In this document: piece after piece, positions 3,036 to 40,114 of the stretch
How positions within the stretch are numbered: position 1 is the stretch's first letter
Layout of the letters: each line of letters begins with the position of its first letter
DNA from: a virus
IMG/VR virus record: IMGVR_UViG_3300036985_003303
Span: 1 to 64,000 of that record
Length of the DNA stretch: 64,000 nucleotides
Reading direction: 5' to 3' (one strand)
Translations under genes and position numbers: made by a program
Notes under the pieces: model-generated
What the model saw: the letters and a program-made list of their open reading frames with translations, nothing else
Told to the model about the DNA's origin: nothing
Database searches by the model: none

Positions 3036-3587
3036 TTAACATGCAGCCCATGCAATGAATTTGTATAGACCTAATTTTTCAGTTGTTGACTTTTTATATG
3101 TGACAGTTGCACATTGACTATTGCCTTCAATAAGTTCTTTAGCAATAATTATTTTTACATTGACATCTGGATTAGCTTCAACATAAGTTCTTGCTTTTTT
3201 GATACAAACTGTTTGGCTTTTATCTCTTGCAACTTCTCGTTGATCCCATGTAGTTACTGCTTTGTATACAGTTTCCCACTTACGAGTTCCTTTTTGAGGA
3301 GTTACATCTACTTGAGATTTAACTTTGTTTTTATTTTCTACAGGTGTTTCCATGCAAAACCCCCAAGCTTCACGCTTACTTGCATTGTCTGCAATATATT
3401 CTTCAATATCTCTAAAACTTTTAGTTTTTGTCATTGAAGTAACATCTTTAGTCAAATCACAAGTATGTATTCCACCGGAGTAACCTTCTTGATGACCAAA
3501 GTAATCTTCATCATCTTGACATGCTCTTTTAAAAGCATCTTGAATATTTTTACCTCTTGCTGTTCTATAAATTAGTTCTGCTCCCAT
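3036..3587 (-). CDS. Conserved phage protein with N-terminal MGA...GYSGG motif
   Basis: A 183-residue protein opening with MGAELIYRTARGK, then an AFKRACQDD helix and YFGHQEGYSGGI. I recognise this N-terminal pattern (MGA, an Ala-rich helix, aromatic-GH, GY[TS]G) as recurrent in proteins of many unrelated phages, but its function is not known to me. The C-terminal ~100 residues (TWDQREVARDKSQTVCIKKA and onward) look like a second small alpha/beta domain. The gene overlaps the start of the WGR gene's downstream end by 16 bases and precedes the polymerase, so it belongs to the replication operon. Confidence 0.8.
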   Translation of the reverse strand: MGAELIYRTARGKNIQDAFKRACQDDEDYFGHQEGYSGGIHTCDLTKDVTSMTKTKSFRDIEEYIADNASKREAWGFCMETPVENKNKVKSQVDVTPQKGTRKWETVYKAVTTWDQREVARDKSQTVCIKKARTYVEANPDVNVKIIIAKELIEGNSQCATVTYKKSTTEKLGLYKFIAWAAC

Positions 3588-4009
3588 TTTTGTTTTTCTT
3601 TAGTTTCAATTAATACTTCTGCTAATCTTACTGTTTCCGGATCTGTGGAATATAACATCCGTGTGACTGTAGTGTATTCTTCTTCAGTCATATATTTTTC
3701 ATTGACCATTTCTGCGGCAAAAGAACTATAAATTCTAGTTCTTTGATTTTGAGTGGTTGCTAATAGATCAGTATAGTTATATCCTTTGTTAACTTTGGAT
3801 TGAATTAACTTATCATATACAGCTCTAGCTTTATAAAAGGGTAAAGGACTTTCATTTTTAGTTCCATGAACCAAAGTATTACCTCTTCTCCCATAAGCAA
3901 AATTTATATTCCAAAGATTACTTTTTGGAATTTTACAAAGTTCAGCTTGATAAACTTTGTCTGATTTGTAATCCATATAATGCAAATTTGTAGTTTGGAT
4001 TAGTTCCAT
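3572..4009 (-). CDS. WGR-domain protein with C-terminal HEAT-like motif
   Basis: 145 residues. Residues ~15-75 match the WGR domain: a beta strand with VYQAEL, then WNINFAYGRRGNTLVHGTK and a helix leading to NKGYNYTDLL. WGR domains are nucleic-acid or protein binding modules best known from PARPs and also found in bacterial proteins near MoxR/VWA genes. The C-terminal ~40 residues carry a single helical motif, MLYSTDPETVRLAEVLI, that recurs in other proteins of this phage. Stop and start overlap the neighbours (TAATG type at 4009). Role inferred: DNA-associated accessory factor. Confidence 0.85.
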   Translation of the reverse strand: MELIQTTNLHYMDYKSDKVYQAELCKIPKSNLWNINFAYGRRGNTLVHGTKNESPLPFYKARAVYDKLIQSKVNKGYNYTDLLATTQNQRTRIYSSFAAEMVNEKYMTEEEYTTVTRMLYSTDPETVRLAEVLIETKEKQKWEQN

Positions 4010-4215
4010 TACATTGATGATTTTTCAATTATTCCTTTTAATGTTGTTGCGCCTAACTTGCACACATCTTCTTCATCTGACTTCAAGTACTGAAGGATTC
4101 TTTCATACTGTTCATCATCAACTAAGCCATTTCTTTTGGCAAAGTTTAGTCTAATAATATCTGGATCTCTTGGTTTTCCTGAGCCAAAAACTTTACCTAA
4201 ATCAATTGTGCTCAT
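4009..4215 (-). CDS. Small protein with single HEAT-like motif
   Basis: 68 residues, not recognised as a named family. The second half reads as two amphipathic helices with YLKSDEEDVCKLGATTLKGI, one clear copy of the S-x-D-x-E-x3-L-G motif that recurs in at least six other proteins here. The first half has a Lys/Arg-Asp-Pro-Asp loop and a helix. It overlaps the WGR gene start and follows a hairpin terminator on its upstream side (4231-4265), so it opens a new transcription segment or is read by readthrough. Function unknown; a protein-interaction peptide is plausible. Confidence 0.75.
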   Translation of the reverse strand: MSTIDLGKVFGSGKPRDPDIIRLNFAKRNGLVDDEQYERILQYLKSDEEDVCKLGATTLKGIIEKSSM

Positions 4216-4230
4216 AAACTTGAATAAATA

Positions 4231-4265
4231 AAAAGTGCGAGAAACTAGAAGAATCTCGCACTTTT
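4231..4265 (-). terminator. Rho-independent terminator
   Basis: Perfect 12-bp inverted repeat AAAAGTGCGAGA / TCTCGCACTTTT with an 11-nt loop. On the minus strand it ends in TTTTT and directly follows the stop codon of the gene at 4281-4685. It ends that unit. Confidence 0.85.
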
Positions 4266-4280
4266 GTTAAGAATTGGTGC

Positions 4281-4685
4281 TTACTTTTTAGCCTTAGCTC
4301 TTGCTGCTTCAGGATTGATTACATTGCGGAAAGGAAAAGTATCTGCATTGTCTGCAAACTTTTCTACAAAAGCAATAATATCATCTTCATTTACAAGTGT
4401 GTACTCATAAAAAGTTTTGATTGCTTTTCTTTCTTCTTTGTAGTTCTTACCTACAACTTTTCGGCCTTTAGCAATTGCTGTATCTCCGTTGTCATCTAAC
4501 TTAGGAAACAAATGGAATGTATCCTTTTGGACTGTAGAAATAATTGCTAACTGTTTTTGATCTGGCACATAGATACACTCCACGAATGGACAAGTTTCAT
4601 TTGTTCTGATCATGCTAAACGTTGGCATGCCTCTGTGATCTTGCACAACTAACATCATGCTTTTTTGGTTGGTGTTTTCTGACAT
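4281..4685 (-). CDS. Conserved hypothetical phage protein
   Basis: 134 residues with no family I can name. It contains several hydrophobic beta strands (SMMLVVQDH, CIYVPDQKQLAIIS) and ends in an Ala/Lys tail. A minus-strand TATCTTTG (4698-4705) sits 13 bases upstream of the ATG and could be a -7 promoter box (TAnnTTTG), giving an almost leaderless transcript that stops at the 4231-4265 hairpin. This isolated, individually terminated unit inside a replication operon suggests independent expression. Function unknown. Confidence 0.75.
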   Translation of the reverse strand: MSENTNQKSMMLVVQDHRGMPTFSMIRTNETCPFVECIYVPDQKQLAIISTVQKDTFHLFPKLDDNGDTAIAKGRKVVGKNYKEERKAIKTFYEYTLVNEDDIIAFVEKFADNADTFPFRNVINPEAARAKAKK

Positions 4686-4694
4686 AGTATTTTC

Positions 4695-5720
4695 TTACAA
4701 AGATATTAAATTGTTTGCAAATTCATAAGGTAATGTAAAGTCTTTGCTTGTAATGTGATAATTGATTTTCTTGTTTACCATGTGGAACAATTCAGTAAAA
4801 TACTTTTCCATTGATGAATCTTCTACTGGAAAGCAATACACATCATTGTTTTGGTCAACCACAATAAAGTGAAAAATGATTTTGTAATCAAACGCGCGGC
4901 CTCTGAGTAAACTTTCAGCAAGAATCTTGTAGATGATTGGTTGCAACCAGTACTCATACTTTTCTGCAGATGTAACAAAGTCTTTTAGTTTTCCACCGTG
5001 CGTTTTAACATCACTGATATAAACAGTTTTGCTTTGGCGATCAACTTTGATTACATCCATGATACCTTTAACACCATACTGAAGTTCATCTGGTCTATGA
5101 GATAACTCAATTTCATATCGGACTTCATCATTTTCATTCACTGGTTTAAGCAAGAAGTTTGCTTTTTCACATGCAAGAATTGCTTCTGCTTTTGCATAGC
5201 ATTTATCCCATGATGCAACATCTACAATTGTTTTCTCGCGTCCTTCTACCATGATTCTAAAATACTCAATTGAGTTTTCAGTAATGATTTTTTCTATACG
5301 CTTTTCATCACCTGTTTTGAATGGAGCTTTCTTGTCATCTACTAATGATTGATGCAAGTTTACTTCTTTCAAGTAAGCAATGATTTCTTCATGATACTCA
5401 TCTAATTCAGATGCATCTCTTGCTAAAGATAAAAGATGTTCTATACAAAGACGAGTACTATCTGTAGGAACAGATATTCCCATGTTGACAAACTTTTCTT
5501 TGAGTTGTTCTGGTTCAAGAACCATGCAGTGAACTAATGATCCTTCATCAAAATGCTTTCCTGTTTTCACATCTTTCTCACCTAATACATAGTGTTTGAA
5601 ATATGTTTTTGGAGATTCAAGCATTAGCTTTAATGCACTTGGGCTGAGCATTAGGTTCTCAACATTAGCAAAGAATGCATCATAATTCATTTGCTGTACT
5701 TCATTTAACTCTTGTTTCAT
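4695..5720 (-). CDS. PD-(D/E)XK superfamily nuclease (RecB/Cas4-like exonuclease)
   Basis: 341 residues. The order of motifs fits PD-(D/E)XK phage exonucleases: an early helix SPSALKLMLESPKTYFKHY, GSLVHCMVLEP (conserved His), GIMDVIKV (Asp), ISDVKTHGG (D-x-K catalytic pair) and LQPIIYKIL (Q-x3-Y). Such enzymes degrade or process DNA ends in phage recombination and replication. It overlaps the downstream unknown gene by four bases (ATGA). With the SSB and RecA-like ATPase in the same block it probably forms a recombination module. A second, different PD-(D/E)XK protein lies at 40111-40950. Confidence 0.88.
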   Translation of the reverse strand: MKQELNEVQQMNYDAFFANVENLMLSPSALKLMLESPKTYFKHYVLGEKDVKTGKHFDEGSLVHCMVLEPEQLKEKFVNMGISVPTDSTRLCIEHLLSLARDASELDEYHEEIIAYLKEVNLHQSLVDDKKAPFKTGDEKRIEKIITENSIEYFRIMVEGREKTIVDVASWDKCYAKAEAILACEKANFLLKPVNENDEVRYEIELSHRPDELQYGVKGIMDVIKVDRQSKTVYISDVKTHGGKLKDFVTSAEKYEYWLQPIIYKILAESLLRGRAFDYKIIFHFIVVDQNNDVYCFPVEDSSMEKYFTELFHMVNKKINYHITSKDFTLPYEFANNLISL

Positions 5721-6688
5721 TTTCTTTTTAGTTTTAATTTGAAATCAAATACTGAACTCTTTTCCAGTTTTGGATGGTAATAGTTATCTGCAATCCTTTC
5801 TAGGATTTCATTTGAAGCATACCCAAACTTTTGTTCATACTCTTTTACAATAGTATCAGACCTTCTTTTGATTCCTGTTTCAATGTTGAATGCACCTTTT
5901 AATAAAGGAAGCACTGGAACATTTGGATTGTTTCTACGGATGTTGTCATCCATGTGATTAATCAAACAGATTAACTCTACAAAAGAATCATTTGGATTAA
6001 TAGTATTGAGCAAAGTCAATGCTACTTTTTCTGAGTCTTGTGATTGCAAAAGCATTTTGATTTTGTTTGATTCTTCAAGCGTTATACCCCGGTTTTTAGC
6101 ATGGTTCAAGACTTCTTTTAACTCAATAGCTTTTTTGTTAGTAGGTATAATCATTCCAGATAAATTAACAACGTTGTTTACATCATGATTGTCACCTCTA
6201 TCCCATTGAGTTTGTGATTGCCTCCAGCTTGATCTACCATAATGTTTGTATGTCATTTGAACATAGTCATCTTCAGAAATCAAATCAAATTCTAATGCAT
6301 TTTGTAATAGTTGTTTTGCTTTTAGACAATAACTATCCCAAAAATCTAATTCTAATACATCTTTAACTTTTTGAAGACAGTACTTTTCTGAATCTTGATG
6401 ACTAAAAACATAATAGTCACAACCAAGGGCTTGAACTTTTCCAGATAGTAATTTAGCATCTGTCATTAGATACTTTCTTACCGCTAAATTAACATAGAGT
6501 GTTTTAGTTTTGTCTTTAACAATACTTTCTACATCTTCATTAATTATTTTTTCATTGATAAGTGCTGCCGTACTTGAATCAAAAATCAACTTATTGACTT
6601 TTAAATCAGTGTCATGGCATTCATAATCGTCAAGAACTACCGCGAAACAAGTCCGCGGTAGTGTCACAACATTTATTGATGAAATCAT
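5717..6688 (-). CDS. Unknown protein with internal HEAT-like motif
   Basis: 323 residues, no recognised family. The N-terminal ~110 residues are alpha/beta with FAVVLDDYECHD. The middle holds NLSGMIIPTNKKAIELKEVL and then MLLQSQDSEKVALTLLNTI, a copy of the HEAT-like S-x-D-x-E motif shared across this phage. The C-terminus is basic (KLKLKRK). It is tightly coupled to both neighbours (ATGA overlap with the nuclease start at 5720; stop one base from the MoxR stop frame at 6688). Position between nuclease and MoxR ATPase suggests replication or remodelling work, but nothing in the sequence proves it. Confidence 0.78.
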   Translation of the reverse strand: MISSINVVTLPRTCFAVVLDDYECHDTDLKVNKLIFDSSTAALINEKIINEDVESIVKDKTKTLYVNLAVRKYLMTDAKLLSGKVQALGCDYYVFSHQDSEKYCLQKVKDVLELDFWDSYCLKAKQLLQNALEFDLISEDDYVQMTYKHYGRSSWRQSQTQWDRGDNHDVNNVVNLSGMIIPTNKKAIELKEVLNHAKNRGITLEESNKIKMLLQSQDSEKVALTLLNTINPNDSFVELICLINHMDDNIRRNNPNVPVLPLLKGAFNIETGIKRRSDTIVKEYEQKFGYASNEILERIADNYYHPKLEKSSVFDFKLKLKRK

Positions 6689-7884
6689 TATTCTAAAATT
6701 ACATTTACAAATTCATCTTCAAGCATAAGTACATTGTATTTGTTGCTTGAGTTGACTACTTTCTTAGCCAATACAAACTTCAAGTCAGATCCTAATGCTT
6801 TACCAACAACCAAATCTTTTACTCTTTCAATAAATGCAGGAGTAATTTCTTTGTCTTTCACGGTATGAACCATGTGGTTAATCAATCTGGTAGTTAATAC
6901 ATAACCAAGATCAGCTCTGTAGTCTTTACCTTCTTTAACCAACTCTTTGATTTTAACTTGAATAGTATCAAAGCTAACTTTTGTATCCAAAATTTCAGCA
7001 GGTGAAATCATTTTATCCAACTTATTATGGATGAATGATGTAAACATTGTTGTAATTTCTGGACCAACTGCGCCTTCACCAATGTTCTGGATAAGCATCA
7101 GTTGTTTGTCAAAGTCCTTGATTGTTCTTAAAGAATTGTAGAACTTCACCAAACTTCTTGGATTTACTACAGGATTGTCATCTTTGATAATCTCTTTACC
7201 ATGTAACAAAGTAAAGTTAATTGCACGTTGGTCAATACCTGATTTTTCAGCCCACTCAGCCCAAACTTCTGGCTCCCATCTCATATCAAAGGTAATGTAT
7301 CTTGACTTTGCAGCAGCATCAATGTCTGTTACATTGTAAGTACCGTCATCTGGATTTTCTGTAAGAAGAATAGTCCACCCTTTTGGTAACGCCCAAGAAA
7401 TGTAGCGTTGCTTGTCAATGATTTCCATTACAGCTTGCATAAAGCGTGGTGCTGCTCTAGTGTAATCATCTAAGATAAGTACACCGTTTTCTCCCTTACC
7501 TGCAATCCAAGCTGGCTTAGCATAGCTCATTCGGCTTTGTCCATTAGCTTTCCATCCCTGTGCAGCAAAGGAATCCATGACTTTTTCATCAACCCATTTA
7601 CCCACTTGTGTATCGCCTTGCTTAGCAACCATCTGATATTCCTTAATTGGAATACCAACTAAGTCACCTAACTCATCTAGCTGAGCTAAGTTGATAATTT
7701 CTACATGTTTTATATTTAGCTCTTCAGCTAATTGTTCCACTACGGATGTCTTTCCTAATCCTGCTGCACCACAAATTGAGATAGCAACTGGTTTCAATCC
7801 ATCTTCTTGGATTGCTCTATTGTTTGTAATCAAGTGAGTCAATGTTTCTTTTAACTCTTTGCTGTTTAACTGTACTTTGTTCAT
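6688..7884 (-). CDS. MoxR-type AAA+ ATPase
   Basis: About 398 residues from ATG 7884 (MNKVQLNSKEL); a longer start at 7968 would overlap the upstream gene by 67 bases. Walker A is GAAGLGKT (residues 39-46), Walker B is GVLILDDYTRA, with sensor-like LLTENPDDGTYNV and an arginine-rich KSRYITFDMRW segment. This matches MoxR-like AAA+ ATPases (AAA_5/CbbQ type), which remodel protein complexes together with a VWA partner. The partner is encoded immediately upstream (7902-9131), the classical MoxR-VWA pairing (compare RavA-ViaA, CbbQ-CbbO). The client in this phage is unknown. Confidence 0.92.
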   Translation of the reverse strand: MNKVQLNSKELKETLTHLITNNRAIQEDGLKPVAISICGAAGLGKTSVVEQLAEELNIKHVEIINLAQLDELGDLVGIPIKEYQMVAKQGDTQVGKWVDEKVMDSFAAQGWKANGQSRMSYAKPAWIAGKGENGVLILDDYTRAAPRFMQAVMEIIDKQRYISWALPKGWTILLTENPDDGTYNVTDIDAAAKSRYITFDMRWEPEVWAEWAEKSGIDQRAINFTLLHGKEIIKDDNPVVNPRSLVKFYNSLRTIKDFDKQLMLIQNIGEGAVGPEITTMFTSFIHNKLDKMISPAEILDTKVSFDTIQVKIKELVKEGKDYRADLGYVLTTRLINHMVHTVKDKEITPAFIERVKDLVVGKALGSDLKFVLAKKVVNSSNKYNVLMLEDEFVNVILE

Positions 7885-7901
7885 AACTCTTAATTTAACT
7901 T

Positions 7902-9131
7902 TTAATTTAACTTGATTGTTTTTCCTGGTAAATGATCTGTGTCCTGACATTTTGTAGATAATACCCACAACATGTTTTTAACTGGCGCATTTGGAGCAGG
8001 ACATTCTCCATCTGTAAGATAAATGAGTGTAGTGTATTTCTTTCTGTGTTGTATGTAATAATCTACAACAGGATTGAAATCAGTACCTCCTCTTTTCTTA
8101 ATAACCAAAGGAATGTTTGGTCTATATTTTACTGGATCTTGCATCTGTGTGTCTGCAAAAACCAATGTAAAATCATGTCCACACTTGTACATGTGGTGAA
8201 TTTCATGCATAAACTCTTTAATTTCATCATCAGATACTGAAGCAGAACTGTCAATTGCAATTAAGATGGTTGAAAATTCCTGAACTTTGATTCCAAAATC
8301 TAATTCAAACCGCTTGCTTTGTTTTCTTTTGGTTTTACGCATGCTGTTTTTAGAACTGTTCCCAATGTATCTTCTCAAGTAAGCTTTCCAATTAAACTTT
8401 GGTGGTTCAATTACTTTTAAAGCTTCTAACTTTTGTAAGACCTCTCTAGGTATCGTACCCCGCATCTTTTGCACTTGCTCAACAACTTCATCCAACATGA
8501 CTTCAAGTTGCTTGTCAACGAGTTTCTGTTGTGTTTCTGATAGGTCATCGAAGTCATCCCATTGGTGATTAGGAACACGCATGTTGTTTTTACCTTGATT
8601 GGTTACTTGCATAGATCCATTAGCAACAGCATCTTTAATGGCATCAAGTAAACTTTGACCTTGTCCGCTACCTTTACCTGTTCCTGGCCCATTTCTTTCA
8701 CTTTCTCTGTTTAGTTTTTCATAGTAAACATTTGTTCCTTCGTCAGGAAGCAAGTCATAATCACTAAATTTTTCAAGTGTACAGCCATCTGGTGGTAAAT
8801 AATTGGGATCAATCTTTTGATTAATCTCAACATCTTGTGCAGTATTTGCTAACTCATGGTTTTTGAGATGCTTGTATTCTGTAATATGAAAGAATGCAAT
8901 ATGCATTAATTCGTGCTGAAGCAAACCTTTCTTCTGGTCTTCAGACAATGTTTGCCAAAATTCCGGATTAATATACAACTTGTAGTTGATTCCTTCTAGT
9001 CCAACACCGGCTGTTGGTACTTTGTCTGTCCATTCTTTGTTAAGATTTAGAAGCAGTAGCCCATAAAATGGCTGTTCTAGCATTAAGTCTTTACAAATCT
9101 TCGTGAGATTTTGTTGGAGGTTTACTGACAT
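7902..9131 (-). CDS. VWA-domain protein with metallopeptidase-like domain (MoxR partner)
   Basis: 409 residues. The N-terminal domain has HELMH (residues 73-77) followed by a helix with HITEYKHLKNHELANTAQDVEIN, matching the DUF2201-type putative zinc metallopeptidase domain. A Gly-rich linker (~150-160) precedes the C-terminal VWA domain with an intact MIDAS: DSSAS (294-298), GGTDF (~353) and LTDGE (~375). Such proteins act with MoxR ATPases, encoded directly downstream. Metal-dependent binding of a client and ATP-driven remodelling is the family expectation. The first 40 bases overlap the upstream gene. Confidence 0.92.
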   Translation of the reverse strand: MSVNLQQNLTKICKDLMLEQPFYGLLLLNLNKEWTDKVPTAGVGLEGINYKLYINPEFWQTLSEDQKKGLLQHELMHIAFFHITEYKHLKNHELANTAQDVEINQKIDPNYLPPDGCTLEKFSDYDLLPDEGTNVYYEKLNRESERNGPGTGKGSGQGQSLLDAIKDAVANGSMQVTNQGKNNMRVPNHQWDDFDDLSETQQKLVDKQLEVMLDEVVEQVQKMRGTIPREVLQKLEALKVIEPPKFNWKAYLRRYIGNSSKNSMRKTKRKQSKRFELDFGIKVQEFSTILIAIDSSASVSDDEIKEFMHEIHHMYKCGHDFTLVFADTQMQDPVKYRPNIPLVIKKRGGTDFNPVVDYYIQHRKKYTTLIYLTDGECPAPNAPVKNMLWVLSTKCQDTDHLPGKTIKLN

Positions 9132-9513
9132 TTAACTGTGGTATTTGTGATTTAATTGATTTTCTTATCTCTGAAGTCCATGTACTTGACATTAAACTGT
9201 AAAGATATTCATTGTAATAAACAAAGAATTTTTCTATACTTGAATGTGAAGGACAATTATTTTGAATGTAACTTACCATTTTAGCTAAACACTCCATCGC
9301 TGGAGTATAAGATGGCCATTCTAACAGATCTGTCATTTTTTTATCCAAGTCTTCATCTGCTTTAATTGAACTTTTGATTGGTTCTAAAGTCAAATACCAA
9401 TATAAAGCATTGTCTTTGTCTAACACAGATAGCAGTGCTAGTTGACCAAGCTTATGGTTTTCTACATCTTTGGATTCAAGAAGTCTTTTTATTTTTTTCT
9501 CCTGCGATTGCAT
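9091..9513 (-). CDS. Helical protein with N-terminal HEAT-like motif
   Basis: 140 residues, mostly helical. The N-terminus reads IKRLLESKDVENHKLGQLAL, the clearest copy of the S-x-D-x-E-x3-L-G motif in this genome. The remainder has no recognised motif. It lies between primase (overlap 38 bases) and the VWA protein (overlap 41 bases), so it is translationally coupled to both. A role in tethering replication and MoxR/VWA proteins is a guess from position only. Confidence 0.75.
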   Translation of the reverse strand: MQSQEKKIKRLLESKDVENHKLGQLALLSVLDKDNALYWYLTLEPIKSSIKADEDLDKKMTDLLEWPSYTPAMECLAKMVSYIQNNCPSHSSIEKFFVYYNEYLYSLMSSTWTSEIRKSIKSQIPQLNVSKPPTKSHEDL

Positions 9514-10474
9514 TTTTTAGGATTGGGATTAAAAATACTTTTGTGCTTGCAACACCATGTTGCTTGACACATTCTGCAATGTCTTTTTCTACATTGAAAT
9601 AAATGTAAGATATATCATACAAATCTTTGTAGTGTTTCATTGCTTTCATGCCTGCGATGTCATTGTCAAATAGAGTGAATACAAATTCATATTCTTGTCG
9701 GTACTTGTCAATCTGTGCTTGAGTGATAGTAACATTCTCGCTGTCGGGAGCTACAAGCTCAATCTGATTGAACTTGAGTGCCTTGAATGCACCGATGTCT
9801 TTCAGAGATGATGCAATGATTAGACAACGCGCCTTGTATGTGAGTTGTTCTTCACCTTGCGTATATTCTCTAAGCTTTAAGAACTTTGCTACCTTTCGCG
9901 TTGGCTGATAGATTTTGCATAGCTCTCCTGCATTATTGAAATAACCATAACACATGTTCTGAGCAAAGTTCATTTCTTCTACTCCGTCTTCTTTTGTAAT
10001 GGTAATGGTATATTCTCCTAGTGGCTTTATGTTATAGTTCTTTAAGAAAGAACCACCTATTCCAAATTGTTTCCAGAACGCAGCATCAGCATTAGTCCAT
10101 TTACGGATTGTGTACTTGTTGACTTCTCTGATTTCTTTGGAGGCGGTATTAATGTATTTAGGGATTTCTGTATCATTCTTAAAAAGATCTAGGATTTGCC
10201 TATAGCCATTTTGCCTATCTGATAAGTTGTAGAGTTCTAATACTATATCAACAGCATCACCATAGTTCCCTGAAGAAAAATCTTTAAAGCGATATATTTG
10301 TTCATCATCTGAGAAAAACAAAATCATTGAAGGATCATTGTCTGCCTTGTTAAAGATAGATTTGATTTTAACTGACTGTCCTTCTAATGCTTCTTCAAGA
10401 TTTAAAATTCTTTCCATGATCCTGTTACTAGGTATAGGAAAGTTTTTGTTAGTGTAATAAACTGTGTGTATCAT
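9476..10474 (-). CDS. DnaG-type primase (TOPRIM domain)
   Basis: 332 residues. Residues ~215-310 form a TOPRIM domain: hydrophobic CLIIASSLKDIGAF, then FDNDIAG (269-275, the DxDxxG motif) and KDIAECVKQHG. The usual TOPRIM glutamate (EGxxD) is replaced within ASSLKD, as I recall in some phage primases. The N-terminal ~120 residues resemble a catalytic-core start without a visible zinc finger. It synthesises primers on the lagging strand with the DnaB-like helicase encoded at 12684-13676. A terminator hairpin separates it from the SSB gene. Confidence 0.88.
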   Translation of the reverse strand: MIHTVYYTNKNFPIPSNRIMERILNLEEALEGQSVKIKSIFNKADNDPSMILFFSDDEQIYRFKDFSSGNYGDAVDIVLELYNLSDRQNGYRQILDLFKNDTEIPKYINTASKEIREVNKYTIRKWTNADAAFWKQFGIGGSFLKNYNIKPLGEYTITITKEDGVEEMNFAQNMCYGYFNNAGELCKIYQPTRKVAKFLKLREYTQGEEQLTYKARCLIIASSLKDIGAFKALKFNQIELVAPDSENVTITQAQIDKYRQEYEFVFTLFDNDIAGMKAMKHYKDLYDISYIYFNVEKDIAECVKQHGVASTKVFLIPILKNAIAGEKNKKTS

Positions 10475-30500: not shown

Positions 30501-30803
30501 ATGGACTATTCAAATATGTGGTGGAATGATGCTATAGAGATTCCTCTAATGGTCAAGCATATGCAGATAATAAAGCATTTTGAAAAGAAGTATGGTGTGG
30601 AAGTTAACAGAGAAATGACTTTTGTAGAATCTAAGTACATAGCAGATGCTATTACACAAATCAAATTTCTAAAAGTTCGGAAGATCATAGATACCAACAA
30701 AGCCTGTACGTTGTTTAGGCTAGTCTGCAGTACGGATCAAGAGAGTAAGCAGATGGGATTAGACCTAATGCAACAGCTCAAGGCCAAGGCTAGAAAAAAA
30801 TAA
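30501..30803 (+). CDS. Helical protein with HEAT-like motif
   Basis: 100 residues from ATG 30501 (MDYSNMWWNDAIEIP); an in-frame TTG at 30495 is less likely. Mostly helical; the C-terminus has LVCSTDQESKQMGLDLMQQL, a copy of the S-x-D-x-E motif, and a basic end KAKARKK. First rightward gene. Possibly an early regulator; function unknown. Confidence 0.75.
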   Translation: MDYSNMWWNDAIEIPLMVKHMQIIKHFEKKYGVEVNREMTFVESKYIADAITQIKFLKVRKIIDTNKACTLFRLVCSTDQESKQMGLDLMQQLKAKARKK

Positions 30804-31491: not shown

Positions 31492-31986
31492 ATGATAAAG
31501 CCGGTAATTAGGAAAGTTAAGTTAGAACAAGGCATTGCTGATGTTTCTACTGGAGAAATCCTTCCACATTCCACAACCATCAATGTAGTTGACAAAGATC
31601 TAGTGATTGTTCACAGCGATGAGTATGTGATCATAGATAGTTCAGCTCTTCAGTACATTCTTCAGAACTTTAGCCCGGTAGACTACGGCAGGATCTTGAA
31701 AATGGCGGACATGACCAATGGTGTGTACAATATCTTGTACCACAACCGCCAAATTCCGCATACTGACGCTACACTTATGGAGCAATTGCAGTACACGCGC
31801 AACAAGTACGCTGACTTTATGAAGAGGTTGTACCGCAAGAGTGTGATCAGTTACATTCATACTGTTAAAGATGGAAAAGAGATGAAGTACATTATGCTTA
31901 ATCCCAACTTGGCTAGGAAAAGAAAGACAATTGACAAGAATTGTCTAACATATTTTGATGAACTAGGAACTAAAAGCGGGTTATAA
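31492..31986 (+). CDS. RepL-like winged-helix protein
   Basis: 164 residues. Residues ~55-140 form a helix-rich winged-helix-like domain: SALQYILQNFSPVDYGRILK, NGVYNILYHN, YADFMKRLYRKSVISYI, then a beta wing and YIMLNPNLARKRK. This recalls RepL plasmid replication proteins, which crAss-like phages are reported to encode. It may bind the origin or a promoter; its location next to the divergent G6 elements fits such a role. Confidence 0.68.
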   Translation: MIKPVIRKVKLEQGIADVSTGEILPHSTTINVVDKDLVIVHSDEYVIIDSSALQYILQNFSPVDYGRILKMADMTNGVYNILYHNRQIPHTDATLMEQLQYTRNKYADFMKRLYRKSVISYIHTVKDGKEMKYIMLNPNLARKRKTIDKNCLTYFDELGTKSGL

Positions 31987-32324
31987 TGAAAGGATTACCA
32001 ATAACATCATTTGAGGGAGGAGATATTTTATTTAGTCTGAGCGATATGAATGAACAATGGCTTTATAGAAACGGAGAGTTAGAAAAAATGACAAGTTCCG
32101 CATCTGACTTTGAAATAAGAAAACCTTTGCCAAATGAATTGTTTCTTAAAATGGCAAGATCAACAGGAGATGAAGTAGCTATAAAATTATATCAAGCATT
32201 AGTTGATGAATGGATAACTGAAACGGAGCATGACAGATTTTCAAAAATGTTAGATTCAAGAGATCCTGAAGCGCGCCACTTGGTTAACTTGCTTTTGAAT
32301 AGACGCATAAATGAATTAAAATGA
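31986..32324 (+). CDS. Protein with C-terminal HEAT-like motif
   Basis: 112 residues. N-terminal beta-rich half (FEGGDILFSLSDMNEQWLYR), C-terminal helices with WITETEHDRFSKMLDSRDPE then ARHLVNLLLNRRI: a copy of the recurrent motif, preceded by the usual T/S-E-x-E helix. Start and stop overlap neighbours. Unknown. Confidence 0.7.
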   Translation: MKGLPITSFEGGDILFSLSDMNEQWLYRNGELEKMTSSASDFEIRKPLPNELFLKMARSTGDEVAIKLYQALVDEWITETEHDRFSKMLDSRDPEARHLVNLLLNRRINELK

Positions 32325-33234: not shown

Positions 33235-33235
33235 A

Positions 33236-33559: not shown

Positions 33560-33576
33560 ATAAACAAAAAATAGTT

Positions 33577-33858
33577 ATGTTATACCAAGGAAAAATTGTC
33601 ATTTTAGACAAACCGGCTTATGAGCCAAAAATTAAAGGATTAGAACTTAGTCCAGAAGCGCAAGCATCTATGGAAGCTGATCTTGTTAAGCACTACACGC
33701 GACTAACTGTACATGCAGTTGGTGAAGATGTAACTTTCTGTAAGGCAGGAGATGAAGTGTTGGTTACACCTCGTCAATTATCTTACTGTGATGTAGTAGA
33801 TATTGAAGGAAAAACAAAGTTTGTTGCTAAAGAAGCAGATTGCATTGGCAAGTACTAA
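33577..33858 (+). CDS. GroES/gp31-like co-chaperonin (tentative)
   Basis: 93 residues. The order VILDKPAYEPK, helix, LTVHAVGEDVTFCKAGDEVL, then a strand-rich end with AKEADCIGKY resembles the GroES fold (V-x-x-VG-x-x-V-x3-K-x-GD-x-V...). A mobile-loop segment would be the LSPEAQASMEADLVKHY helix, which is atypical. If correct it would help host GroEL fold the capsid protein. Followed by a strong terminator. Confidence 0.6.
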   Translation: MLYQGKIVILDKPAYEPKIKGLELSPEAQASMEADLVKHYTRLTVHAVGEDVTFCKAGDEVLVTPRQLSYCDVVDIEGKTKFVAKEADCIGKY

Positions 33859-33879
33859 TTAGTGTTAAACTATAAATGA

Positions 33880-33909
33880 AAGGTCTTGGTTACTCAAGGC
33901 CTTTTTTTT
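33880..33909 (+). terminator. Rho-independent terminator
   Basis: AAGGTCTTG / CAAGGCCTT (9 bp, one G-T pair), 6-nt loop, then TTTTTTG. Ends the early rightward operon. Confidence 0.88.
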
Positions 33910-33912
33910 GTT

Positions 33913-33967
33913 TATATTTGTTGCATAAGAGAAAACTTTTTTGTATATTATATACATTGTTTATTAA
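33913..33967 (+). promoter_or_regulatory. Late promoter region
   Basis: TATATTTG (33913-33920) and, 21 bases on, TTGTATATTATATACATTGT then TTATTAA (33941-33967). The second block closely matches the one at 54118-54145 upstream of the major tail gene. Drives the appendage and lysis genes. Confidence 0.65.
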
Positions 33968-33978
33968 AATTAGAGATT

Positions 33979-34437
33979 ATGTCAATTATAAATTCAGACG
34001 GTTTAAATACCAACTGGCAACTTAATGTTTTGAAAGGCCTTCAAGGTATCATAGATGAACTCAATTCAACTATAAATGTTAATGGTAGTGTAAATGCCAA
34101 CATTGTTTCACCATTAGGTATTCGAACAGAAACAGAAAGTGTAAGTGTTGCATTGTCTTCAGAACAATGGAGAGAAATTATTAGACCTGTTTTAATTATA
34201 TCTTCAGGAGATATTCCAACACTCATAACTGCGAAACCTCGTTCTATATCTTTTGCTAGTAATGGTACAGATCCCGCATTAGTATCATTTGATAGCGGTG
34301 CAACTTATGAGCAAATTCCTCCAGGAACTACATTAAACATGGATGCAGGAGGAATTGCCAATTATTATGAAGTTGACACCTTTGGGTATGATACATCAAC
34401 TGATGGAGCTTCTTTGATCATTACATATAATTTATAG
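33979..34437 (+). CDS. Virion appendage protein (tentative)
   Basis: 152 residues from ATG 33979 (MSIINSDGLNTNWQLN); the frame is open further upstream but runs across the promoter. Short N-terminal helix, then NGSVNANIVSP and a beta-rich C-terminus with repeats of Ser/Thr/Gly. The structure resembles other phage tail or head-fibre subunits. Followed by two more appendage-like genes with TAATG/one-base spacing. Confidence 0.68.
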   Translation: MSIINSDGLNTNWQLNVLKGLQGIIDELNSTINVNGSVNANIVSPLGIRTETESVSVALSSEQWREIIRPVLIISSGDIPTLITAKPRSISFASNGTDPALVSFDSGATYEQIPPGTTLNMDAGGIANYYEVDTFGYDTSTDGASLIITYNL

Positions 34438-34439
34438 TA

Positions 34440-35003
34440 ATGAGTACTCAAATTCATTTAGACAGGTATTCATCAAATCCTAATGGGTATTTGAGTAGAT
34501 TGTATACACAGAATAACTCTAGTACTCCTGTAACAGCTACGGATGATGAAGGTAGTTTATTAGATGGGGGGTTAGGAACTCTTACTATTCCTGCAAATGG
34601 ATTTCAAAAAGGGGATAGCTTTAAAGGAGTGCTAATAGGTCATTTATCTTGTGTAGGTACAGCTACTTTACAAATTAGAGTTAAAACAGCATCAGGAATA
34701 CCATTAGCTGACACAGGTGCAATGGCAATGAATCTTACTACTAATAAACATTGGAAACTTGATGTTGATTTTACTGTAAGACAAATAGGTGCAGCTACTG
34801 TAGCTTCTATAGCATCAGGAGGATTGTTTGCTTATACCAAAAATTCTGGGTTTAACTTTGAAGGTGTAAATTTCAGCATAGTTAATAATTTAGATTTTGA
34901 CACTACTGTAGATAATACACTTGTTATAACTGCTCAATGGAATACAAATAACGCAGGAAATTCTATTTACTCAGAAATCTTTACATTAAATAAGACATAT
35001 TAA
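34440..35003 (+). CDS. Beta-rich appendage protein
   Basis: 187 residues, no Cys in the C-terminal half, beta strands throughout, ending in ITAQWNTNNAGNSIYSEIF. The (I/V)TAQW...NSI motif is typical of C-terminal jelly-roll domains of phage fibres. Probably a head or tail fibre. Stop overlaps the next ATG. Confidence 0.7.
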   Translation: MSTQIHLDRYSSNPNGYLSRLYTQNNSSTPVTATDDEGSLLDGGLGTLTIPANGFQKGDSFKGVLIGHLSCVGTATLQIRVKTASGIPLADTGAMAMNLTTNKHWKLDVDFTVRQIGAATVASIASGGLFAYTKNSGFNFEGVNFSIVNNLDFDTTVDNTLVITAQWNTNNAGNSIYSEIFTLNKTY

Positions 35004-36397
35004 TGAGCACAAATATATATAGAAATTTGCCAGGAAATGTACATGATGCGGCAGTTAATAGTAACGCGCCATCTGGTACAAATCCTTTTGCAACAGAATT
35101 AGATCTTGCAAATATCAATAATGTAGGAAATGCTAATTTATTAATAAGCGGTGGAGCGTCATGGTCTGGAACAGGACTTATCTTTAATACCACAGCTCTT
35201 ACATTTCAAATATCTGGAATTGTTTATACAGCAAATCCACAAACTATAACATTGCCTGCAAGCAACCCAACAAATCCTAGATTTGATGCAATAGTAGTAG
35301 ATGAAGCAGGTACAGTTTCTATAATATCAGGAACTGCTGCAGCAAATCCACTTACTCCGGCAATCAATGAAACATTTGTTCTTTTGCAATATGTATTAGT
35401 TGGAGCAGGTGCAACTGTACCAACGGTAACAAATGAATTTGTTTACAGAGATGGATCTAGTCCAGACTGGTTGCCAGTGTCGGTACCAGGAACAGCTCCT
35501 TTATTAGTTGCAAATTTTTCAAGTACTTTTCCTGCACCTTTTCAAGGTTCTGAATGTACTCTTGTAAATGCTCCTACATATAATGCAGGAAAGTATATTC
35601 AATATACAAAACCTGTTGGTACTATACCTAGAGCAACATTTGCTTTTTTATCATTTAGAGTTAATCTACCTGCAACCTTAGCTGCAAGAAATATTCAAGT
35701 ATCTCTTTTCAATGGAACTACTTTGATAGGATCTGTTCAAGCTACAGCTTGGGGATTAAATATGAGTAGTATAAATAACTGGCAATTGGTTTCTATTCCT
35801 ACAGGAGCATTTGGAAATGTTGCCATTACAACAATGACAAGGATTAGACTTTTTCTTACAGGTACAACAGCAAATACTTTTTCTACAGGAATAGATAGGT
35901 ATGCAGTTGATGATGTAAAATTTCAATCTGGATTTGGACCACAATCAAATGTAGCGACTATAGATATAGAAGCTAACGGGACTCCTATTGGATCTACAGC
36001 TAAGTTAAGTTTTATGCCAACAGTAGGAACAACATGGCAACTAACAAATGATTTAGTTAACAATAAAATAGAAGTAAGAGCTAACTCTATAAATGCAAGT
36101 GTTTTTCCTGAATTGGTAACACTTGGTAGGAATTTAGTAACTACGGATGCTGGGAAATTTTTAATGGTGGATTCAATAAATCCAGAAACTATGACTGTTC
36201 CATTAGGTAGCGTTGTTTCTATTCCTATAGGAAGCGTTATTAAAATTGCTCAACAAGGATTTGGTTCTGTAACTATAGCTGCTGCAGTAGGTGTAATAGT
36301 GTTATGTTCAGGTCCATTTATTATTCCTGGTCAATATAGAGTTGCTACATTAACAAAAACGGCTATAGATACTTGGTATTTAGAGTACAGTATATAA
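35003..36397 (+). CDS. Tail or head fibre protein
   Basis: 464 residues, Asn/Thr/Gly/Pro-rich, beta repeats. N-terminal NIYRNLPGNVHDAAVNSNAP, a central carbohydrate-binding-like beta sandwich around residues 160-320 (LVANFSSTFPAPF ... NIQVSLFNGTTLIG), and a C-terminal compact beta domain (VTIAAAVGVIVLCSGPFI). Likely receptor binding or virion decoration. Confidence 0.72.
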   Translation: MSTNIYRNLPGNVHDAAVNSNAPSGTNPFATELDLANINNVGNANLLISGGASWSGTGLIFNTTALTFQISGIVYTANPQTITLPASNPTNPRFDAIVVDEAGTVSIISGTAAANPLTPAINETFVLLQYVLVGAGATVPTVTNEFVYRDGSSPDWLPVSVPGTAPLLVANFSSTFPAPFQGSECTLVNAPTYNAGKYIQYTKPVGTIPRATFAFLSFRVNLPATLAARNIQVSLFNGTTLIGSVQATAWGLNMSSINNWQLVSIPTGAFGNVAITTMTRIRLFLTGTTANTFSTGIDRYAVDDVKFQSGFGPQSNVATIDIEANGTPIGSTAKLSFMPTVGTTWQLTNDLVNNKIEVRANSINASVFPELVTLGRNLVTTDAGKFLMVDSINPETMTVPLGSVVSIPIGSVIKIAQQGFGSVTIAAAVGVIVLCSGPFIIPGQYRVATLTKTAIDTWYLEYSI

Positions 36398-36408
36398 AAT
36401 AAAATAAA

Positions 36409-36954
36409 ATGAAAGGTGTTTGTTGTAAAATAGTAATGAGTGCTGGATATAAAGACACAGCACATTTTATAGATAGTGCATTTCACCCAAATATGGCAGG
36501 ATTTGCGGTTGGAGCTAGTACAATACTAGCAACCATTGCTTATTATTTCAATGTAATATTTGGCATAGAATTACCTGTAGGAATAGTTTTAATAGTCTTA
36601 TTTGGCTTAGAAATGTTTACCGGAATCAGAGCCTCTAGAACAGAGAACAAAACATTTGACTCAGAATTATTTGGAAAAGGTTGGTTAAAGTTGTTAATTT
36701 ACATGATAATGATTGGATGCTCCCATGCATTAGCTGTTCATGTTCCAGTAAAAACTTTTTTTAGTTGGGACTTTAACATTTATTCATGGTTGCATTATGG
36801 ATTTTATAACTTTGTACTGATAAACTTGATTTGGTCTAATTTAGAAAACTTTAAAAGACTTGGTTGGAATGAATATGTACCAATACTAAAGCAGTTGTCA
36901 AAGTACATTAAAGATGAACCTAAAACAAAAAATGATGGAAGAGAAAACAATTAA
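36409..36954 (+). CDS. Holin (phage holin family 4-like)
   Basis: 181 residues with three to four membrane segments: ASTILATIAYYFNVIFGI, VGIVLIVLFGLEMFTGI, LIYMIMIGCSHALAV, and an aromatic YGFYNFVLINLIW. The FGLEMFTGIRASRTENKTFDS loop and topology match the TcdE/phage_holin_4 family. It would form the inner membrane lesion that releases the amidase encoded at 37459. ATG 36436 (MSAGYKD) is an alternative start. Confidence 0.85.
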   Translation: MKGVCCKIVMSAGYKDTAHFIDSAFHPNMAGFAVGASTILATIAYYFNVIFGIELPVGIVLIVLFGLEMFTGIRASRTENKTFDSELFGKGWLKLLIYMIMIGCSHALAVHVPVKTFFSWDFNIYSWLHYGFYNFVLINLIWSNLENFKRLGWNEYVPILKQLSKYIKDEPKTKNDGRENN

Positions 36955-37159
36955 AGAAAGATGGAAAGCAAAAACACCAAAATTTTGGAAGAAAATGCAA
37001 AGAATTGGTATAGCAGCTGGAGTACTAGGCGGAATCCTTTTAGCTTCTCCTATAGCACTACCTGCGGCAATATTGACTGGAGCGGGTTATCTGATTGCAC
37101 TTGGTAGTGCAACTGCAACATTATCACAACTTACAGTTGAAAACCCTGAAACAAAGTAA
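36935..37159 (+). CDS. Second membrane protein of lysis cassette
   Basis: 74 residues from ATG 36935 (MEEKTIKERWKAK), overlapping the holin by 20 bases; starts at 36914 or 36932 are possible. Basic N-terminus then hydrophobic GIAAGVLGGILLASPIALPA and ILTGAGYLIALGSATATL: a two-helix hairpin. Could be an accessory holin or antiholin. I recall similar proteins beside holins in Bacteroidota phages. Confidence 0.72.
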   Translation: MEEKTIKERWKAKTPKFWKKMQRIGIAAGVLGGILLASPIALPAAILTGAGYLIALGSATATLSQLTVENPETK

Positions 37160-37161
37160 TC

Positions 37162-37455
37162 ATGGCAAAGAAAAAAGTTGAAGATTTCAAAGTGGATGTT
37201 GATACCAAGAAGGTAGATGTTCATGTAGAAAAAAAAGATGGCGGTTTTAAAGCTGAAGTCAATACTGAAAAGGTTGATGTAAAGTTTGAAAAAGGAACAA
37301 CTGGATCAGATTTTGATTTAGATTCTAAAAAACTTGACATCCATGTAAAAAAAGATGAAAACGGAACTACTGTTGAAGTAGATGCTGCAAATGGATTCTT
37401 AAAAAAGATTGGTAATCTTATCTCAAAGATTTTTGTTAAGAAATTTAACAAGTAA
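37162..37455 (+). CDS. Charged beta-repeat protein with cationic amphipathic tail
   Basis: 97 residues: an alternating Lys/Asp/Val repeat (DVDTKKVDVHVEKKDGGFKA, then VNTEKVDVKFEKG) of about 24 residues, and a C-terminal amphipathic helix GFLKKIGNLISKIFVKKFNK, positively charged and hydrophobic. Lies between two membrane proteins and the endolysin. The tail resembles membrane-active peptides; a spanin-like or disruptin-like lysis role is inferred. Confidence 0.72.
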   Translation: MAKKKVEDFKVDVDTKKVDVHVEKKDGGFKAEVNTEKVDVKFEKGTTGSDFDLDSKKLDIHVKKDENGTTVEVDAANGFLKKIGNLISKIFVKKFNK

Positions 37456-37458
37456 AAA

Positions 37459-38145
37459 ATGGGAGAGTTAGATCTAAAAAAAATCAAGCAGGTTCCTTTA
37501 TCATCAGGTCAATACATTGATGAAGAAGTTAAAAAGGTTCAAATTGTTTTGCACCATACTGCTGGAAATTCATCTGCACCTGCAACTATTAAGATGTGGG
37601 ATACAGATGACAGAGGTAAAATTGCAACATGTATTGTAATCTCTGGAAAAGGTTTGTCTAAAGATACCTTTGATGGAGAGATTTGTCAAGCATTTGGTTC
37701 TAAAAAATGGGGTTATCACTTAGGTCTTAAACAAGATATTTTTAGATCTAAAGGTGTTGCATACAAATCCATTGATCCTATAGCTATAGGTATTGAGATA
37801 TGCAACTGGGGACCATTAGATAAAGTAGGTGATAAGTATTACAACTATGTGGATAGAGAAGTTTCTGTTGACCAAGTTTGTGTATTAAGCGCGCCTTACA
37901 AAGGACATCTATATTATCATGCATATACGGATGCTCAGATTGAATCAGTGCGTCAGCTGTTAGTTTACTGGAGCAAGATCCATGGAATTGATTTGACTTA
38001 TAACGAAGACATCTGGGGTATATCAGTTAGAGCTTTAAAAGGAGAGAATGGAGTTTTTACTCACAACTCATACCGTAAAGACAAATCTGATGTTTCTCCA
38101 CAACCAAAGTTAATTGCAATGCTTAAAGCATTAAAGAATGGCTAG
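37459..38145 (+). CDS. Endolysin, N-acetylmuramoyl-L-alanine amidase (Amidase_2)
   Basis: 228 residues. Zinc-ligand HHT near residue 32-34 (IVLHHTAGNS), then WGYHLGL, IGIEICNWGP with Glu, and a later FTHNSYRKDKSDVSPQP giving the second His and Asp/Cys position. Typical Amidase_2 fold of about 230 residues. No signal peptide, so it needs the holin. It cleaves peptidoglycan at the end of infection. Confidence 0.92.
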   Translation: MGELDLKKIKQVPLSSGQYIDEEVKKVQIVLHHTAGNSSAPATIKMWDTDDRGKIATCIVISGKGLSKDTFDGEICQAFGSKKWGYHLGLKQDIFRSKGVAYKSIDPIAIGIEICNWGPLDKVGDKYYNYVDREVSVDQVCVLSAPYKGHLYYHAYTDAQIESVRQLLVYWSKIHGIDLTYNEDIWGISVRALKGENGVFTHNSYRKDKSDVSPQPKLIAMLKALKNG

Positions 38146-38431
38146 AAACTCATTAGCAGGTAAGTCTACTGGAACCAGTAAGTCTGCAAAGTATTTTGCT
38201 TCTAATCCTGAAGCGCGTAAGAAAAAGAATGAATACAACAAAGAGTATCATTCAAGTCCTTCGCGTATCAAATATAGAGAGCAATTAAATGAAGCTAATA
38301 GAAAATCTGGAACTTATGGTAACAAAGATGGCAAAGATAAGTCACATACTAAAAAAGGAACATTAGTAAATGAGAAAGCTTCTACAAACCGCGCTAGAAA
38401 TGGTAAAGGAAACAATGCTAGAAAAAAATAA
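38138..38431 (+). CDS. Small highly basic conserved phage protein
   Basis: 97 residues: SGxxSAKYFASNPEARKKKNEYN type sequence, EYHSSPSRIKYREQLNEANR, GKDKSHTKKGTLVNEKAS. Widespread phage family in my memory; Lys/Arg/Asn-rich, probably DNA or RNA binding, perhaps a virion-packaged protein. Start overlaps the endolysin by eight bases. Followed by a terminator. Confidence 0.82.
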   Translation: MARNSLAGKSTGTSKSAKYFASNPEARKKKNEYNKEYHSSPSRIKYREQLNEANRKSGTYGNKDGKDKSHTKKGTLVNEKASTNRARNGKGNNARKK

Positions 38432-38460
38432 ACTCCCCTTTGAATTTTATTTCATTGGCT

Positions 38461-38490
38461 AAAAGCACTTAGGAATAGGTGCTTTTTTTA
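38461..38490 (+). terminator. Rho-independent terminator
   Basis: AAAAGCAC / GTGCTTTT stem (8 bp), then TTTATT. Ends the lysis operon. Confidence 0.78.
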
Positions 38491-38520
38491 TTAAACATTA
38501 AATAGTTAAACATTTATTAT

Positions 38521-38528
38521 TATATTTG
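38521..38528 (+). promoter_or_regulatory. Promoter -7 box TATATTTG
   Basis: TAnnTTTG box 21 bases before the ATG at 38550. The word AATAGTTAAACAT (38501-38513) just upstream recurs before the 46489 promoter (46458-46470). Confidence 0.65.
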
Positions 38529-38549
38529 ACATAATAAACATTAAATATT

Positions 38550-38816
38550 ATGTCAGAACAAACCAACCAAGAAGAACGCGAGTACACTCCACAAGAGATA
38601 CGCGCCATGCAAGAAAAAACACTTGCATATTACAGGAGTCAAGAAAAGGTTCTTGCTACTCAATGTATTGTTGAGGAACTAAAAGCTCGCATTAAAAAAG
38701 CACAATTTGAAGCATTTGATTATTCGCTAAGAATGATGCAAATTAATCAAGCTATGCAGGATGCAGCTGAAGAGGAAGAAAAAGAAGCAAAAGAGTCTGA
38801 AACAAAAGAAGAGTAA
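38550..38816 (+). CDS. Coiled-coil acidic protein
   Basis: 88 residues. Acidic N- and C-termini and a central helix (YYRSQEKVLATQCIVEELKA) with heptads. First gene of the packaging operon. Function unknown; could be a small chaperone or regulator. Confidence 0.7.
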   Translation: MSEQTNQEEREYTPQEIRAMQEKTLAYYRSQEKVLATQCIVEELKARIKKAQFEAFDYSLRMMQINQAMQDAAEEEEKEAKESETKEE

Positions 38817-38818
38817 TC

Positions 38819-39202
38819 ATGGCAAAAGCACTAGTTGTTAACAAGCAAGTGCCGCTATCTTTGATTGAAGTAATTAAGTTTCAAATAAACATGTATTGCT
38901 TCATAAATAAGATTAGGTTAAGTCCGGCACAATTAGATTGTTTGTCTTTATTGGGATTATACGGTGAAATGAACATGTCAGATTTCTGCAATGAAGTTAT
39001 TTCTGAAGAGATCTTTGGCAATGTTCAGACTACAAGAAACTTTATCACAAAGTGTGTAAAAGAAGATTTGGTAACTAGAAGTGGATTAGGAAACAAACTT
39101 GTTACATTAAACAAAGATTTGGAACTATTGACTGAGGGAACTATATTACTTAATTTAAAAGTATATCATCTTGAAACCGACCAAGGGCAAAGAGCTAATT
39201 AA
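38819..39202 (+). CDS. Conserved winged-helix-like protein
   Basis: 127 residues with helices (IKFQINMYCFINKIRLSPAQ, CLSLLGLYGE), a turn and a strand-rich wing (GNKLVTLNKDLELL). Looks like a winged-helix or MarR-like fold. Next to an IHF-like gene; possibly DNA bending or packaging. The 3' end overlaps it by 32 bases. Confidence 0.68.
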   Translation: MAKALVVNKQVPLSLIEVIKFQINMYCFINKIRLSPAQLDCLSLLGLYGEMNMSDFCNEVISEEIFGNVQTTRNFITKCVKEDLVTRSGLGNKLVTLNKDLELLTEGTILLNLKVYHLETDQGQRAN

Positions 39203-39566
39203 AAAAACAGCTCAAGAATTGAATTTACCAGAGGAGATGGTAAAAGATGTTGTTGAGTTTTACTATTCTATAGTAACTAGAAAGATTGAGAATTTAGAAA
39301 GTGCTACAATCTTTTTGCATGGATTAGGTACTCTTAGATTAAGCAGAAGAAAGCTTGAAAAGAATATTGAGAGAATGCAGAAATTATTGGAGAGTAATTC
39401 TCAAGAGGATTTTAAAAAAGTAATTAAGTTCAATCTTTCTAAAACACTATTGGACAGCAAAGTTAAAGGGTTAGAAATGTGTAATGAATACTATAAACCA
39501 TTATATGAAAAGCGTAATAAAAATTTGGAAAGCAAAAGGGCAAATCCTGGAGGGGATCAAGAATAA
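39171..39566 (+). CDS. IHF/HU-family-like DNA-binding protein
   Basis: 131 residues. KELIKKTAQELNLPEEMVKD then VVEFYYSIVTRKI, FLHGLGTLRLSRRKLEKN follow the HU/IHF order (helix pair, then GxGxF strand). The TTG at 39171 is the start in this frame. crAss-like phages carry IHF-like genes by their packaging genes, so context agrees. It should bend DNA, maybe at packaging or late promoters. Confidence 0.75.
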   Translation: MKPTKGKELIKKTAQELNLPEEMVKDVVEFYYSIVTRKIENLESATIFLHGLGTLRLSRRKLEKNIERMQKLLESNSQEDFKKVIKFNLSKTLLDSKVKGLEMCNEYYKPLYEKRNKNLESKRANPGGDQE

Positions 39567-39831
39567 CATTTTCAAAAATGAGCATGTTGAAGAAATTGCC
39601 AAAGAAAGATGGGCTATCTGTGAACAGTGTCCAATAGTAGACAAAGAAGGAGATAAGTGTTTGGTTCCTGGAACCGGCCCATGTTGTGGATCTTGCGGAT
39701 GTAGCATGGGATTAAAACTAAGAGCACTTGGTTCTGATTGTCCAGAAGGTAAATGGGATGCAGTGTTGTCACATGAAGAAAGTTATTTACTACAAAAAAA
39801 ATTAGGAGATGACTCAGAACAAGAAAAGTAG
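39484..39831 (+). CDS. Cysteine-rich zinc-binding protein (DUF6171-like)
   Basis: 115 residues. Two C-x2-C pairs and a compact Cys cluster: CEQCPIVD, CLVPGTGPCCGSCGCSMGLK and DCPEGKW. This resembles small phage zinc-finger proteins beside packaging genes. The 83-base overlap with the IHF-like gene is unusual; the true ATG might be 39505 or later. Likely metal-stabilised. Confidence 0.75.
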   Translation: MNTINHYMKSVIKIWKAKGQILEGIKNNIFKNEHVEEIAKERWAICEQCPIVDKEGDKCLVPGTGPCCGSCGCSMGLKLRALGSDCPEGKWDAVLSHEESYLLQKKLGDDSEQEK

Positions 39832-40114
39832 TTTATATAATGCGGGTATTATGCCAATTGATCCTAGTGATGCACAAGGATTGTGGAGTCAAATAACTCA
39901 AGGTAGTACTATTCCTTATGATCCATACAAGACGGTATCAATTTCTGCAGATGAAAAAGAGTATTTGGAAACTATTGCTCTTGCTGCAGATTTGTTAGCT
40001 GGTGAAGTAATTTCATCTCAAGACTTTTTTAAGTTGAAACTATTACTTAAAAGTGCAGATGAAGAAGTAAGAAACACAGGTATCATATTTTTAAACCAAA
40101 AGGCAAAACTATGA
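39809..40114 (+). CDS. Protein with C-terminal HEAT-like motif
   Basis: 101 residues. The N-terminal half is disordered-looking (Gly/Pro/Asp), the C-terminus is helical with LAGEVISSQDFFKLKLLLKS then ADEEVRNTGIIFLNQKAKL: a copy of the recurrent S-x-D-E-E motif, and the most HEAT-like (ADEEVRNTG). Overlaps both neighbours. Unknown. Confidence 0.72.
   Translation: MTQNKKSSLYNAGIMPIDPSDAQGLWSQITQGSTIPYDPYKTVSISADEKEYLETIALAADLLAGEVISSQDFFKLKLLLKSADEEVRNTGIIFLNQKAKL

Follow-up and report, generated by a model that had tools for sequence, protein, structure and literature searches.

The MoxR-vWA systems of bacteria rely on adaptors called effector-associated domains (EADs), which are small, for the most part helical, located at protein ends and present in several copies (PMC7159879, PMC8195603); for the EADs of the MoxR-vWA conflict systems, a role as coupling adaptors has been proposed (Kaur et al. 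2020, PMC7159879). The SHOCT domain, short, C-terminal and made of two helices, is found promiscuously on many proteins, and the first experiments on it gave no support for oligomerisation (PMC3581485). The EAD of the bacterial systems is the closest working analogy for the module described here. The TFIIS N-terminal domain (TND), a helical docking domain that occurs on several proteins, is a further point of comparison.

The window analysed comprises bases 1-64,000 of a 117,346-bp IMG/VR virus record, which has 518 ORFs in its whole length. The record is a crAss-like phage, and the terminase of the window is about 25% identical to those of crAss-like and Flavobacterium phages over most of its length. 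Several of its proteins carry a real three-helix module that is undescribed in the libraries searched. The seven carriers, A to G, and the two candidate core partners are as follows.

3572..4009, minus strand: carrier A, WGR-like domain (residues 1-80) and C-terminal module (residues 86-144, about 3578-3754; core 3599-3697)
4009..4215, minus strand: carrier B, 68 aa with little beyond the module; core 4033-4128
5717..6688, minus strand: carrier C, directly downstream of MoxR, BRCT-like part (weak) and helical domain; internal core 6008-6085
6688..7968, minus strand: MoxR-type AAA ATPase (Pfam AAA_5, 24.1 bits, cut-off 22), candidate core partner
7902..9131, minus strand: DUF2201 protein with a putative metallopeptidase domain (HELMH) and a VWA-like domain (DxSxS), candidate core partner
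9091..9513, minus strand: carrier D, N-terminal module, core 9439-9513; the ORF and the VWA gene have 41 bp in common
30501..30803, plus strand: carrier E, C-terminal module, core 30681-30779; weakest copy
31986..32324, plus strand: carrier F, C-terminal module, core 32208-32303 (E-value 1.2e-5 with the A-family profile)
39809..40114, plus strand: carrier G, variable N-terminal part and conserved C-terminal module, core 40004-40102

The carriers lie amid replication, recombination and packaging genes, with PD-(D/E)XK proteins, a Toprim primase-like protein, a DnaB-like helicase and the terminase. Further downstream, 54160-61732 encodes structural-type proteins with many paired cysteines, followed by two collagen-like proteins with G-P-x repeats (60379-61230 and 61241-61732). 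At the end of this structural gene run, the product of 61736-63511 has DNSGSM in a VWA-like stretch, and its sequence suggests that it may be a second VWA-type protein of the phage.

The head of carrier A is a WGR domain by fold and by sequence. The fold is recognised by VIA, with a Z score of 10.9 against 2ra8 and scores of about 8-9.6 against PARP WGR domains (PARP2 about 9); the sequence gives 21.0 bits with Pfam WGR, just under the cut-off of 22, and is 33% identical to a phage WGR protein. The three helices of its module match only generic bundles in the PDB (7yh8 with Z 8.4, the DnaK lid with Z about 6), and the lack of closer matches does not argue for a new fold. Carrier C has a weakly BRCT-like part in its model, with Z scores of 4-6, which do not establish the assignment. 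Residues ~136-160 of C contain a second SHOCT-like stretch, ALEFDLISEDDYVQM, which is kept in near orthologues and has no S-x-D turn.

The original prediction, that one helical motif recurs in seven proteins, is borne out: all seven ORFs and peptides are present at the positions listed above. An HMM built from the seven ungapped 30-residue copies and searched against the 518 ORFs of the record recovers exactly A to G with E-values of 1e-13 to 2e-11, the next ORF having an E-value of 0.37. In a leave-one-out test, which reports the E-value of the left-out copy when it is the first non-training match, A has 2e-4, D 2.6e-4, F 0.010, G 0.014 and C 0.018, and B and E are not recovered. Since the seven copies had been chosen by eye, the motif was retested with profiles from other phages, each made from a single gene family. 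The A-family profile finds F (1.2e-5), C (6.5e-5), B (4e-4), G (0.025) and D (0.029) of the window; the D-family profile finds B (2e-6), A (4e-5), F (0.004), G (0.005) and C (0.037); and the G-family profile finds A (1e-4), F (0.005) and E (0.011). The top unrelated ORF among the 518 in these three tests has E-values of 0.09 to 1.3. The B- and C-family profiles are weaker, with a clear match to D alone (6e-4 and 3e-4, respectively) and weak matches to the remainder. Copy E, the weakest, is clearly matched by the G-family profile alone, and its S-T-D-x-E-S turn is retained in orthologues of 68-80% identity. Copy C of the window has a two-residue deletion in the hairpin when compared with distant orthologues.

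Profile-profile comparison with hhalign gives 96% for D-C over 53 columns and 96% for G-A over 45 columns, helix 1 included, followed by A-D (95%), G-D (93%), A-C (84%) and G-C (67%). The D-C and G-A matches support homology past the core. The shared unit is longer than the motif S-x-D-x-E-x3-L-G first proposed. The carriers are otherwise different, as predicted, but the statement that they share nothing visible does not quite hold for C with D or for A with G. The sequences point to one homologous module of about 45-60 residues, mostly located at the ends of otherwise different proteins. No Pfam or PHROGs family reaches its cut-off for this module, in agreement with the expectation that it is not an annotated common domain.

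The unit consists of helix 1, an I-T/S-x-E-E-Y stretch that caps helix 2, and an M/L-L-x-S-x-D-x-E stretch that forms the turn and caps helix 3. The conserved columns are I, T/S/D, Y, I/L, M/L, L, S (44/45), D (41/45), E/D, L, A/G, and two aliphatics. The module is C-terminal in A, B, E, F and G, N-terminal in D, and internal in C, and hence terminal in six of the seven carriers. The AF2 model of A (pLDDT 88) has helices at 86-103, 109-119, and 124-144, with T108 just before the second of them and S121-T-D123 as the turn before the third. In the AF2 model of the C orthologue of L049, the helices are confident and the hairpin 226-237/241-252 lies within a helical domain. Because of the places of these residues in the two predicted models, S-x-D-x-E is read as a turn plus a helix cap. 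The motif is one of the best-conserved stretches of D (3 of 105 segments are as good) and of G (6 of 69); its conservation is above average in C (38 of 351 as good) and average in A.

Related phages carry the same module. The first related loci, fetched through MoxR and the terminase, contain 92 copies after iteration at E-values up to 0.0023, with the next match at 0.3, and the reversed and shuffled proteomes of these loci have no match below 0.02. A further 81 loci, fetched mostly through family C, contain 89 motif copies, including 49 of C type and 37 of D type with the motif, and their reversed and shuffled controls give none. The total in related phage contigs is about 180 motif proteins. 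Chance or composition as the source of the motif was ruled out by the shuffled, reversed and other-phage controls. Searches of whole records give seven copies here, six in a sister record and up to six in another record, 122 kb long, with a MoxR of about 40% identity. Family C is encoded in at least 223 viral contigs. Among annotated phages, C has no relative, and A has just two matches, one marginal and the other to a phage DNA ligase in the WGR region; two scans of bacterial genome contigs with C and the terminase gave no relative. MoxR is present in 14 of 25 records, those without it being mostly fragments.

The carriers C and D flank the candidate core. The genes for D, for the DUF2201 metallopeptidase/VWA protein, for MoxR and for C are closely packed and in part overlap, both in the window and in relatives. 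The DUF2201 protein exceeds the Pfam cut-offs for both DUF2201_N (62.1 bits) and DUF2201 (47.8 bits). The order D-VWA-MoxR-C is found in MoxR loci of sufficient length, and VWA-MoxR is the only gene-order link of the carriers that survives in distant relatives, where MoxR identity falls to about 39%. A and B are located near this run, and E, F and G are 21-31 kb away. Insertions interrupt the VWA and MoxR genes in related phages (L054 5162-10756; L057 9712-9947): L054 and L057 have group I introns at MoxR (Rfam RF00028, 58 and 87 bits), and the split genes of L054 contain ORFs resembling GIY-YIG and LAGLIDADG homing endonucleases.

The module resembles EADs in being small, non-enzymatic and helical (in the models of A and the C orthologue), in its mostly terminal position, and in having several copies per genome on different proteins, some beside the MoxR-vWA pair (C and D flanking, A and B near) and some elsewhere (E, F and G). 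In contrast to EADs, its copies occur in phages. C and D match no VMAP, iSTAND, Ubl or GAP1 component in Pfam or PHROGs, and no known effector is recognised here. The EAD hallmark that copies of the same genome are closest to each other is weakly apparent for the C-D pair (uncorrected p 0.006; p 0.045 when computed on five clades) and is not seen for A-B, A-C or B-C.

The reading tentatively preferred here, with somewhat less than an even chance of being right, is that the homologous module is an adaptor by which its carriers are coupled to a single hub, for which MoxR with its VWA/metallopeptidase partner is the leading candidate. The proteins held at this hub would be the WGR protein, the weakly BRCT-like one and several small ones, and binding could be module-to-module or module-to-VWA. 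MoxR-VWA leads because D and C keep their places next to it in the operon; that these two, which have chiefly the module in common, have long persisted beside VWA-MoxR is the best hint of function that the sequences offer. The data show the common sequence, its conservation, predicted helices in two carriers and the operon order, and from these we infer an adaptor role and the MoxR-VWA hub. The proposal that the motif is a detachable docking tag remains plausible given its terminal position, the existence of phage WGR-domain proteins without the module, and the behaviour of the G slot. This slot lies ahead of a PDDEXK-like gene and the terminase; the G gene is missing from it in L093 and L099, and another module protein occupies it in L071. 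In C, however, the module stays in place and decays in some lineages: the hairpin still aligns in the orthologues L010 7259-8503, L012 11194-12138, L014 11179-12102, and L015 11190-12146, but the S-x-D turn is lost. This degeneration counts against a cleanly detachable unit and against the adaptor-hub reading. Also against that reading are the distance of E, F and G from the operon, the weakness of the EAD hallmark of closest copies within a genome, and the fact that helix-turn geometry by itself could account for the invariant S, D and E. The suggestion of a MoxR/VWA partner gains indirect support from the conserved gene order. The fuller version, a phage adaptor network in which a MoxR-VWA-metallopeptidase core gathers at least seven proteins (WGR and BRCT-like ones among them) through the appended three-helix module, as a viral counterpart of the EADs, is rather doubtful. 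In L103 (5877-6454), two neighbouring small genes, each with a module, lie in the slot that holds only G in the window.

The module might instead dock onto another hub, for example a protein of the host or the machinery with which the phage replicates or packages its DNA, with C and D beside MoxR-VWA for an unrelated reason; this is also rather doubtful. The location of the carriers amid replication, recombination and packaging genes, with E, F and G far from MoxR, speaks for such a hub; the only deeply conserved gene-order link, however, leads to VWA-MoxR.

A SHOCT-like oligomerisation domain or general short tag, whose copies bind each other or the carrier body and have no common hub, is unlikely. 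SHOCT and SHOCT_2 (PF09851, PF20612) resemble the module in being short, mainly C-terminal and placed on unrelated proteins, and they form a helix-turn-helix with an I-T-x-E-E-like start of helix 2. SHOCT_2 matches 7 of 24 module sequences at E-values up to 1 (best 20.1 bits, cut-off 24), and SHOCT matches 2 of the 24; a SHOCT score of 16 bits compares with a cut-off of 27, and every score is under the curated gathering cut-off. The promiscuity of SHOCT fits this explanation, but the initial experiments did not favour oligomerisation (PMC3581485). The module also differs from the two-helix SHOCT in having a third helix and the near-invariant S-x-D turn ahead of it.

The identification of the motif as a single HEAT/ARM repeat, as originally proposed, is upheld only as a resemblance of the hairpin. 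The LL-x-S-x-D-x-E hairpin is similar to the H2-H3 turn of the designed 42-residue repeat proteins 4rv1 and 4hxt, which are the top PDB sequence matches of the motif profile, through LVKLLTSTDSEVQKEA. The E-values of these matches are sums over many copies (6-10 repeats), while single repeats reach 6-10 bits; for this reason, no homology to 4rv1 and 4hxt was read into them. Residues 222-299 of the C orthologue resemble beta-catenin (Z 5.6) and the CLASP2 TOG domain (Z 4-5), within the chance range for helical folds. ARM and HEAT repeats come in tandem arrays, whereas the module occurs once per protein. The Pfam matches of the module proteins include no Arm or HEAT model, and the first two helices are more SHOCT-like. 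The similarity to the TND is restricted to a weak sequence match in the last helix (6zuy, E-value 0.8, not significant) and a weak structural similarity of the model of C to TND-containing chains, whereas the TND itself is a larger bundle and belongs to eukaryotic transcription. One module sequence has a lone CARD match (E-value 0.0074).

Convergence, in which stable helix-turn-helix units with two capping boxes would have arisen many times over without any role in common, is improbable. T108 and D123 directly precede helix N-termini in the model of A, which gives the conserved positions structural reasons. However, single-family profiles from other phages recover unrelated carriers above nearly all other ORFs, which makes convergence unlikely; the matches reach 45-53 columns, and three phage genomes (FpV4, ProJPt-Bp1 and cr273_1) have no match at an E-value of 0.05. 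A client tag or degron, whose exposure would mark a protein for remodelling or cleavage by the VWA/metallopeptidase and MoxR, is hardly likely. For it, the VWA protein has the putative DUF2201 metallopeptidase domain with HELMH, and the MIDAS site of a VWA domain could in principle receive an acidic turn if this were exposed; against it, the turn residues may be buried or serve structure only.

As far as could be found, no task is known for these phage MoxR-VWA pairs. On the coupling-adaptor reading, the presence of the module on both operon neighbours and on other proteins names the candidate clients concretely, and the module, as a small peptide, is a bait with which the partner could be fished. 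The profile also applies to phage proteins left unknown by public libraries. If the reading is true, appended adaptor domains would extend from bacterial conflict systems to viruses.
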